Under the pieces are notes generated by a model. That model searched no databases and was not told the DNA's origin. It was given only the letters and a program-made list of their open reading frames with translations. Source: Apostichopus japonicus (taxonomy: Eukaryota; Echinodermata; Holothuroidea; Aspidochirotida; Stichopodidae). Taken from it: a stretch of 64,000 bases of DNA. The stretch is taken from NCBI RefSeq assembly GCF_037975245.1, contig NC_092583.1, positions 8,703,764 through 8,767,763 of the forward strand. The letters run 5' to 3'. The position numbers and the translations under genes are program-made. Shown in pieces: positions 32,776-35,700 of the stretch. The first letter of the stretch is position 1; each line of letters opens with the position of its first letter.

Positions 32776-35700
32776 GGTTTGGCGCCCTCTTTTCCAAATG
32801 CTTGGGGTTTACTGGAATCCACCATATTTTGCACAGGTTTCTGTTGACTTGAGGCTTGCGCAATGGCCTGTTTCTCCAGATCTGCAGCGGTTGCCGTTTG
32901 TTGGGGTGCGAGCAAGTCCTCACCTGAAGGACCAGCTGTGTTGTAAAGAGAAAAAAAGTAAATAAGTAACAGGGTCATCTATGAGAAATCACTTTCCTCC
33001 AGACGTTTCATACTTGGTCTGGGATCAGAGAACATGATCTTTGATACACAGAGGTATGGCATACTTCCTGAATCTAATCCAGATCATAGAAAGCAGAGTT
33101 TGATACATAGAGGTATGACATACTTCCTGAATCTAATCTAAATCAAAGGAAGCGTGTTTGATACACATAGGTATGGCATCATACTGATCCAGATCAAAGG
33201 AAGCAGTGTTTGATACACAGAGGTAAGGCATACTTCCTGAATTTAATCCAAATCAAAGGAAGCAGTGTTTGATACACAGAAGTATGGCATACTTCCTGAA
33301 TCTGATCCAGATCAATGAAAACAGTCTCTGGGAAGAACTGCATACTTTTGTTTGATCCAAAGAAGTCTTCTCAAGTATGATCTGGATCAAGCCAAACAGT
33401 GTTTGTTACACATAAGAATTGTACATGCATAGTAACTGACAAATATTGTATAACTTGACTTGATCTGAAGAGCATTTAAATGCTGAAAGTTGGTGATCAA
33501 AATTCCAATAACGATTTTATCTGTTGATGAGAAAGTCTACCAGAGTGCCTTGGTTTTGATCGGCTGGGTTCCCTTATTGAGTACTACTGGATAATTTTTG
33601 TAAAGCTGCTTTACGCACCTGCTCAACTGAGGACAGCGTGTGTATACGAAGAGGGCGGGAAACTAACGGAGGGAATTCGTGTCATTGCCACCCACTTTAT
33701 GGATTACACAGATTTTACATAGAGTGTTGGTCGTCTCCACAAAACAGTCCCAAAATCATCCCTCCCAACGCAAGAAAAGGATACTTATCGGGCTGCAAAT
33801 GACTTCAAAGTTCTCTAGCATCCAGTAGATGGAAAACCTCTCAAATCCTAAGTTACCGTACGTATATGGACGAAAGCCAAAGGAAAAAAATCCACTCGAA
33901 AAACATGTGTTCAGGTACTTTGGATGGTAGAATGAGGACATTGACCGGAGGGGCTGGTCATCAAGGGGTGTACAGTGTAAAAAGGTTACCAGGACATTAG
34001 GCACGGTAGAACGAGGGTGCTTAGGTTGTAGGGAGATAGGTAAGCGAGGTAAATTTGATCGACTGCGAAGCTTTATCACTACTTTATTACTCAGGGATGA
34101 GCCTGGGGTAAAAAAAAAAAATCACAGAATTTTGCAAAAATTGCGGTATAGGCTCCAGTTTGCATATGCTACAGTGTGTTAGGATAATAGTTTTGCAAAG
34201 TTGCTCACCTGAGGGTTTGTTCACCCTTTGCATCATGCTCGATACATCCAGGAGGTCTGATGGGAGGTACCTCTGCGCTGCTTCGCTGATCGTGCCATCG
34301 TCGTTCGTATGCGCTGACTGGTCCAACCCCTCAAAGAAGGAACTAAAACTGAACGGCTCATCGGGAACTGTGGAGGGCATGTTCAGGATTTCGTGCAGGA
34401 GGGCTAATTCTTCGTTTCTATCTGCTGGAAGCTGCTGGAGTGGCTCCTCAGAAAGAAGGTCCAGATCGGCGTATTTATCTATCACAGTCATTAGAAAAGT
34501 TTTCAATTAATAAAAGTGGTGGTACGTGTAAATAATAAATAAAATATACCTGTTAAGGTATCTTTGCCCTGTTGCCAGGTATCTTTGCTTTGCTCTCTTA
34601 TGAACCATGTACTAACCTGCTATGGTTTCTTTGCCCTGTTCCCCTATGAATCATGTTCTAACCTGTCAGGTATCTTTGCCCTGTTCCCCTATGAATCATT
34701 TACTAACCTGCTATGGTATCTTTGTCTGTTCCCCTATGAACCATTCACTAACCTGTTATGGTATCTTTGCCCTGTTCCCCGATATCTTTGCCCTGTTCCC
34801 CAATGAATCATGTACTAACCTGTTATTGTATCTTTGCTCTGTTCCCCTATGAACCATTCACTAACCTGTTATGGTATCTTTGCCCTTCCTCTACACCATA
34901 TACTTACCTGTTATAGTGTCAATGCCCTGTTCCCCTATGAATGTTGTACCTACCAGTTATGGTGTCGTCGCCCTGTTCACCGGAGTTCCCCATCATACCG
35001 ATAAAGGCGCTTTGCTCCTTATCAGCCTCACTGACGTCCCCAGACTTGCCATCTGCGGGTGATGGCCAAGCTAAAAGTTGGCTTTGTTGACTTGAGTCCT
35101 CGCCGAGAGATATCAATCTGTGACGATATAAAAAAAAAAATGATTAAACTTGACAAAGCCACATAGCATCATGATTTAACAAATGTAAACATTTTCAATT
35201 AAATTAAAATATATTTGATGTGTTGATGGTGAAAGAGACAAATCTTACACCTAAAAGTAGACACAAGTGCATCATGGGTACAATAGGTACGCTGCACTCT
35301 GCACCCGTTAACAACTGTCTCTTTTCATGTACAAATTTCCCTGTGGAGAGCAAAATCATGTTTCAAACACACAGCTTAACCCTTTCAATCCACTACAACA
35401 CACCCCTCACCTTAGTTACGTGTTTTAAACCCTGATTCAAAATACATTACCGATTCAGAAAAATCATGTTGCAAACACACAGCTAGACCCTTTCATTCCT
35501 CTACAACACACCCCTCACCTAAGTTCCATGTTCAAACACCGATTCAGAATACATTACCTCCGCCTGGCTGCAGTCTCTCCATCCTCCCCATTCACTTCTT
35601 TCGCCTCTTGGCCATTCTCTGTCTCCCCTTCTGCTGAACCGTCGGTTTTCTCCGCTAATTTCTTACTCACGTCCTTAAGGTCCTACGGCAGAACACGAAA

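Follow-up and report, generated by a model that had tools for sequence, protein, structure and literature searches.

The end of a coding exon of the ICA1 gene of Apostichopus japonicus, together with its 5′ splice site, is repeated in tandem within the following intron, and eight further donors of varying strength stand downstream of the authentic one. This ladder, located on the minus strand at positions 34549-34978 of the window (the whole stretch of 64,000 nucleotides that was analysed, to which all plain coordinates below refer), is a minisatellite with a 45-46 bp unit and a 112-bp higher-order repeat. We consider it probable that the array is a neutral minisatellite spanning an exon-intron boundary, of the kind named "mirage" in lancelets, and that the authentic donor at 34954 is the one mostly used, with a possible leak at the first copy at 34908.

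The ICA1 gene and its productive frame

Pfam matches to the Arfaptin domain, in exons at 41216-41470, 39167-39415 and 43628-44131, and to the ICA69 C-terminal domain identify the gene as ICA1/ICA69, encoded on the minus strand. The features surrounding the array, for which the exon numbers 9 and 10 are those of the initial annotation, are the following:

34954-35117, minus strand: ICA1 coding exon 9, 164 nt, acceptor CACAG/ATTG; open frame, splice signals, inside the spliced ICA69 match
34479-34953, minus strand: ICA1 intron, 475 nt, GTAGGT...GATAG, mostly array
34549-34978, minus strand: minisatellite, 45-46 bp unit, with the 112-bp higher-order repeat at 34671-34886
34209-34478, minus strand: next ICA1 exon, exon 10, donor CTCAG/GTGAGC
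32670-32935, minus strand: last ICA1 coding exon, ICA69 C-terminal domain (Pfam match region 32670-32978)

Joining 34954 to 34478 keeps the reading frame (ACT G/AT AAA), and the spliced exons 9 to 11 match PF04629 over residues 22-223 of 231 with a score of 74.0 bits. The last exon alone scores 67.9 bits against this family, the gain from splicing being only about 6 bits, and neither exon 9 nor exon 10 alone gave a Pfam match at E <= 1. At the level of sequence, the frame and the spliced PF04629 match point modestly to 34954 as the productive donor, and by the frame, the splice signals and the spliced ICA69 match the boundary from which the array starts is that of a genuine coding exon.

A minisatellite across the exon-intron boundary

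Tandem Repeats Finder reported rows with a period of 45-46 bp at 34578-34780 and 34783-34978, and a 112-bp row with 95% matches at 34671-34886. The start of the array is the last part of the ICA1 exon, and most of the 475-nt intron which follows is array. Alignment of the units established that each corresponds approximately to the last 27 nt of the exon followed by the first 19 nt of the intron, with the exception of the last one (34550), the intronic side of which is unrelated; the proposal made in the initial annotation, that the exon end and its donor had been copied in tandem, was thereby borne out. When 34500-35050 was used as the query in a search of the whole genome (671,581,487 bases in 35 contigs, inclusive of a mitochondrial contig of 16,099 bases, the window being situated on contig C23 of 18,203,763 bases), in which very common words were skipped, a single candidate and a single match were obtained, namely the ICA1 locus. 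The unit was found at this locus alone in that search, and the array was not taken to be a dispersed repeat or a satellite. The mitochondrial COX1 gives a sensible translation when AAA is taken as Asn (genetic code table 9). In the same assembly several COX1 pieces were observed on a 31-kb contig (G000:C29:14745-31219), besides the mitochondrial contig C35, and these are perhaps mitochondrial copies joined in assembly.

On the plus strand, 34549-34978 reads as a ladder of TACTAACCTG, then a pyrimidine-rich stretch, which gives it the appearance of a ladder of branch points, ACTAAC being the complement of GTTAGT; this is probably a by-product. Two more minisatellites were noted, one with a 59-bp unit in an intron of ICA1 (33040-33315) and one with a 69-bp unit in an intron of a WD40-repeat gene that is presumably AAMP-like (18802-19126), and neither array extends to an exon within the part read. 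Elsewhere in the window, a 462-aa open frame on the plus strand (57448-58836) contains an almost complete transposase domain of the piggyBac type, DDE_Tnp_1_7 (E 1.6e-78).

The nine donors and the predicted consequences of their use

Minus-strand GT sites from the exon end onward with at least 6/9 matches to CAG/GTAAGT are listed below:

34948-34956, exon end 34954, minus strand: authentic donor CTG/GTAGGT, 7/9; sole donor keeping the frame open into exon 10
34902-34910, exon end 34908, minus strand: decoy donor 1, CAG/GTAAGT, 9/9, strongest of all
34860-34868, exon end 34866, minus strand: decoy donor 2, CAG/GTTAGT, 8/9
34814-34822, exon end 34820, minus strand: decoy donor 3, CAG/GTTAGT, 8/9
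34747-34755, exon end 34753, minus strand: decoy donor 4, CAG/GTTAGT, 8/9
34702-34710, exon end 34708, minus strand: decoy donor 5, CAG/GTTAGT, 8/9
34657-34665, exon end 34663, minus strand: decoy donor 6, CAG/GTTAGA, 7/9
34611-34619, exon end 34617, minus strand: decoy donor 7, CAG/GTTAGT, 8/9
34544-34552, exon end 34550, minus strand: decoy donor 8, CAG/GTATAT, 7/9; 71-nt intron remainder

With this threshold the count of eight extra donors beyond the authentic one, as given in the initial annotation, was found to be right; CAG/GT is kept in all eight extra units, six of which carry a donor with at least 8/9 matches. The nine donors had also been described as nearly identical, which they are not: predicted pairing with U1 amounts to -10.2 kcal/mol for the authentic donor (7/9), to -14.5 kcal/mol for the first decoy at 34908 (9/9), and to between -9.5 and -10.1 kcal/mol for the five GTTAGT donors (8/9). 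Since the first decoy outscores the authentic donor, splicing cannot be presumed to rely on 34954 exclusively. The intron RNA folds no better than shuffled sequences (z = 0.82), which gives no support to RNA structure as a means of hiding the donors.

Use of the ladder donors would extend the exon beyond 34954 by 46, 88, 134, 201, 246, 291, 337 or 404 nt. Three of these eight extensions are multiples of 3, and the earlier statement that each extra unit shifts the frame accordingly does not hold, while the statement that the first step reaches a TGA does, the same in-frame stop (34921-34919, minus strand, after 11 extra codons) being common to all eight. This TGA lies approximately 280 nt ahead of the exon 10-11 junction, and decay of the extended transcripts would therefore be expected if the usual junction rule extends to echinoderms.

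Donor ladders elsewhere in the genome

For the genome-wide survey a ladder was defined as an exact three-step CAGGTDAGT with gaps of 30-60. No excess of donor ladders was detected across the genome, as 178 raw matches were obtained versus 189 for the mirrored motif (by variant, donor versus mirrored: GTTAGT 40 versus 58, GTAAGT 65 versus 54, GTGAGT 65 versus 58). Manual grouping of the exact three-step ladders gave at least 27 arrays, one of them that of ICA1; ladders of mixed motif were listed up to contig C9. Flanks were taken for all 26 non-ICA1 arrays, and in 11 of them the first donor coincides with the end of an open frame that often starts from a visible acceptor, the end of the frame being inside the repeated unit. 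Counting ICA1, ladders at the end of a coding exon number from 6/27 (supported by homology) to 12/27 (with those supported by the frame only), the 11 others being:

L020: exon-end ladder, KRI1, E 5.6e-28
L033: exon-end ladder, ORC5, E 1.1e-18
L060: exon-end ladder, acyl-CoA oxidase, E 1.3e-12
L056: exon-end ladder, ATP13A2, E 1.3e-6, with Pfam only 0.049
L023: exon-end ladder, C2H2 zinc finger homology
L019, L024, L026, L032, L059 and L062: exon-end ladders, frame only

For L056 and L060 the exon share of the unit is only some 6-11 nt. Among the frame-only cases, L024 and L059 had no match in Pfam or PDB, L062 had no protein match, L026 and L032 had no Pfam match and L019 had no match below 0.04; L024 we take to be VPS39, and L032 is presumably RUNDC1. 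The 15 other arrays are without an apparent exon; eight of these were scanned with Pfam and yielded nothing, and the remaining seven have no frame above 29 aa. In L026 (G000:C2:9783400-9784900) the array has a 63-bp unit with donors, and the frame is open across at least four units; this array, through which the frame runs, may be coding, and ladder use or read-through would lengthen a protein by repeats of 21 residues. On C6, C10 and C18, three GTGAGT ladders with 50-bp units that resemble one another (L022, L055 and L061) each follow a GGTTCAAGCCC box, and box and ladder are perhaps a dispersed tRNA-derived repeat.

Two properties of the ICA1 ladder were compared with the other exon-end ladders. 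The first ladder step contains an in-frame stop in ICA1 and in 7 of the 11 others (the frame used for L019 being probably wrong), which is not clearly above expectation, and selection for stops in ladders was not retained as an explanation. By U1 energy, among ladders that were picked for a good motif, pairing is poorer at the authentic donor than at the first donor of the ladder in ICA1 and in 3 of the 11 others, in two of these by 0.2-0.3 kcal/mol; the two donors are equal in the remaining 8, so that weakness of the authentic donor was not retained as a general trait of ladders.

Whether exon ends are captured more often than by chance depends on the share of CAGGTDAGT sites that are real donors. 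The genome contains 16,207 single CAGGTDAGT sites versus 13,048 mirrored ones; the numbers expected under an order-2 Markov model built on 100 kb are 13,410 and 14,297, respectively, the mirrored motif thus falling below its own estimate. The share of sites above background, taken as real donors, is about 17-20%, perhaps 24%, and if arrays arise blindly about 5 of the 27 would therefore be situated at real donors. The six firm exon-end cases fit this expectation (P(>=6) 0.31-0.44), and for 12 cases P(>=12) is 0.0008 at a share of 17%, 0.0028 at 19.5% and 0.08 at 30%. Exon ends would thus be over-represented if all 12 cases count, the true share of real donors being uncertain. A sample of 100 kb in ten arbitrary pieces held nine minisatellites (period at least 20, at least three copies) totalling 1,835 bases, and with minisatellites this common in the genome one would expect a few exon ends to be captured. 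As a control, 11 mirrored-motif arrays were taken from at least 14 clusters, two of them without sequence outside the array in the piece taken; the scan covered 10 of 16 open frames in the vicinity, of which one gave a match (TLC domain, E 2.9e-5, marginally below the threshold). This control, which is unmatched to the donor test, does not bring out a difference in nearness to exons. The matching array, L046 (G000:C2:31804100-31805600), adjoins the open frame with the TLC domain on the other strand, and is possibly an acceptor-side case.

Origin of the ladder

In the reading that we prefer, a tandem duplication across the exon-intron boundary would have placed copies of the exon end and its donor in the intron, and the array would have grown through slippage or unequal exchange. 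The spliceosome would mostly pick the 5′-most donor, 34954, the only one predicted to yield ICA1 protein, while some use of 34908 would lead to early termination at the TGA and, presumably, to decay of the transcript. Consistent with such a passive origin are the lack of a ladder excess in the genome (178 versus 189), the 112-bp higher-order duplication, as is usual in minisatellites, the folding of the intron (z = 0.82) and the presence of ladders at other exon ends. A ladder equally without purpose might be leakier than this, the decoys, chiefly 34908, taking a sizeable share of splicing (say >10%) and lowering ICA1 output through nonsense-mediated decay to an extent dependent on allele length; the better U1 pairing of 34908 (-14.5 versus -10.2 kcal/mol) and the TGA in all extensions speak for such a leak, but the extra sites of lancelet mirages are reported as not disturbing splicing (PMC3087553, PMC3902484), and we regard a leak of this size as unlikely.

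Still less credible is a selected device, in which the ladder would tune ICA1 through unproductive splicing or bind U1 as an array and so aid the weak authentic donor. The position of this weak donor beside strong copies would suit such a role, as would the finding that, of 41 nine-column windows in units 1-7, the one with the least variation is the donor 9-mer (minority cells 2/63 versus 33/280 elsewhere), the sole hint of constraint and one that neutrality does not predict. The low variability of the donor 9-mer also speaks for the roles put forward in the initial annotation, those of a decoy, a splicing enhancer array or a source of variable isoforms. This finding, however, concerns one locus, the column permutation p = 0.035 being uncorrected; variation is present in two of the nine donor columns, the donors at 34663 and 34550 are degraded, and other donor ladders are located at unrelated genes with no ladder excess in the genome. 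Tandem arrays are prone to mis-assembly, yet an assembly artefact of a repeat is very improbable here, since the assembly, which we take to be the one described in PMC10344927, was produced from PacBio HiFi long reads, and the array totals only about 430 bp, with units that differ among themselves.

Relation to known systems and significance

A human minisatellite giving multiple splice donor sites was reportedly described by Turri et al. in 1995, in what we take to be IFI6 (6-16/G1P3); its unit is said to be of 12 bp, with little beyond the donor motif, and to give rise to variant transcripts. The ICA1 array is likewise a minisatellite with multiple donor sites, whereas its unit, known here from sequence alone, is of 45-46 bp and includes exon-like sequence. 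Closer counterparts are the mirages of lancelets, which two reports describe for Adh3, the globins BflGb6 and BflGb9, PGBD5 and troponin C as minisatellite-like tandem copies of an exon-intron boundary, either boundary being liable to copying, with AG/GT signals kept in many but not all units, normal splicing undisturbed and lengths that vary, and which were proposed as an origin of new introns (PMC3087553, PMC3902484). As in these mirages, the tandem unit at ICA1 holds the exon-intron boundary, starts at a real coding exon and keeps splice signals; the mirages are from cephalochordates and come with expression evidence of normal splicing and with length polymorphism, whereas the ICA1 array is from an echinoderm and represents one assembled haplotype. 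Internal tandem duplication over AG/GT sites, in the model of Rogers and later work as outlined in PMC3087553, leaves usable splice signals; the ICA1 array resembles this model in duplicating splice sites, and differs in lying within an existing intron with no new intron apparent.

No report of a boundary-spanning minisatellite in an echinoderm was found in open-licence papers, and a search for literature on competition between tandem donors returned nothing. The ICA1 array extends boundary-spanning minisatellites, as described in lancelets, to an echinoderm, several of them being present in one genome. Each exon-end ladder offers a ready means of examining how one of several tandem donors is selected by the spliceosome, ICA1 being the sharper case as its first copy is stronger than its authentic donor, and also of probing the model in which new introns originate from duplications of this kind. 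It is a doubtful prospect that donor ladders are frequent at coding exon ends (6 to 12 by the strict motif, probably hundreds), that exon ends are captured above chance, and that donor use makes gene output depend on array length; were this true, exon-end ladders would form a naturally occurring set of cases on which competition between donors and the gain of introns could be tested.
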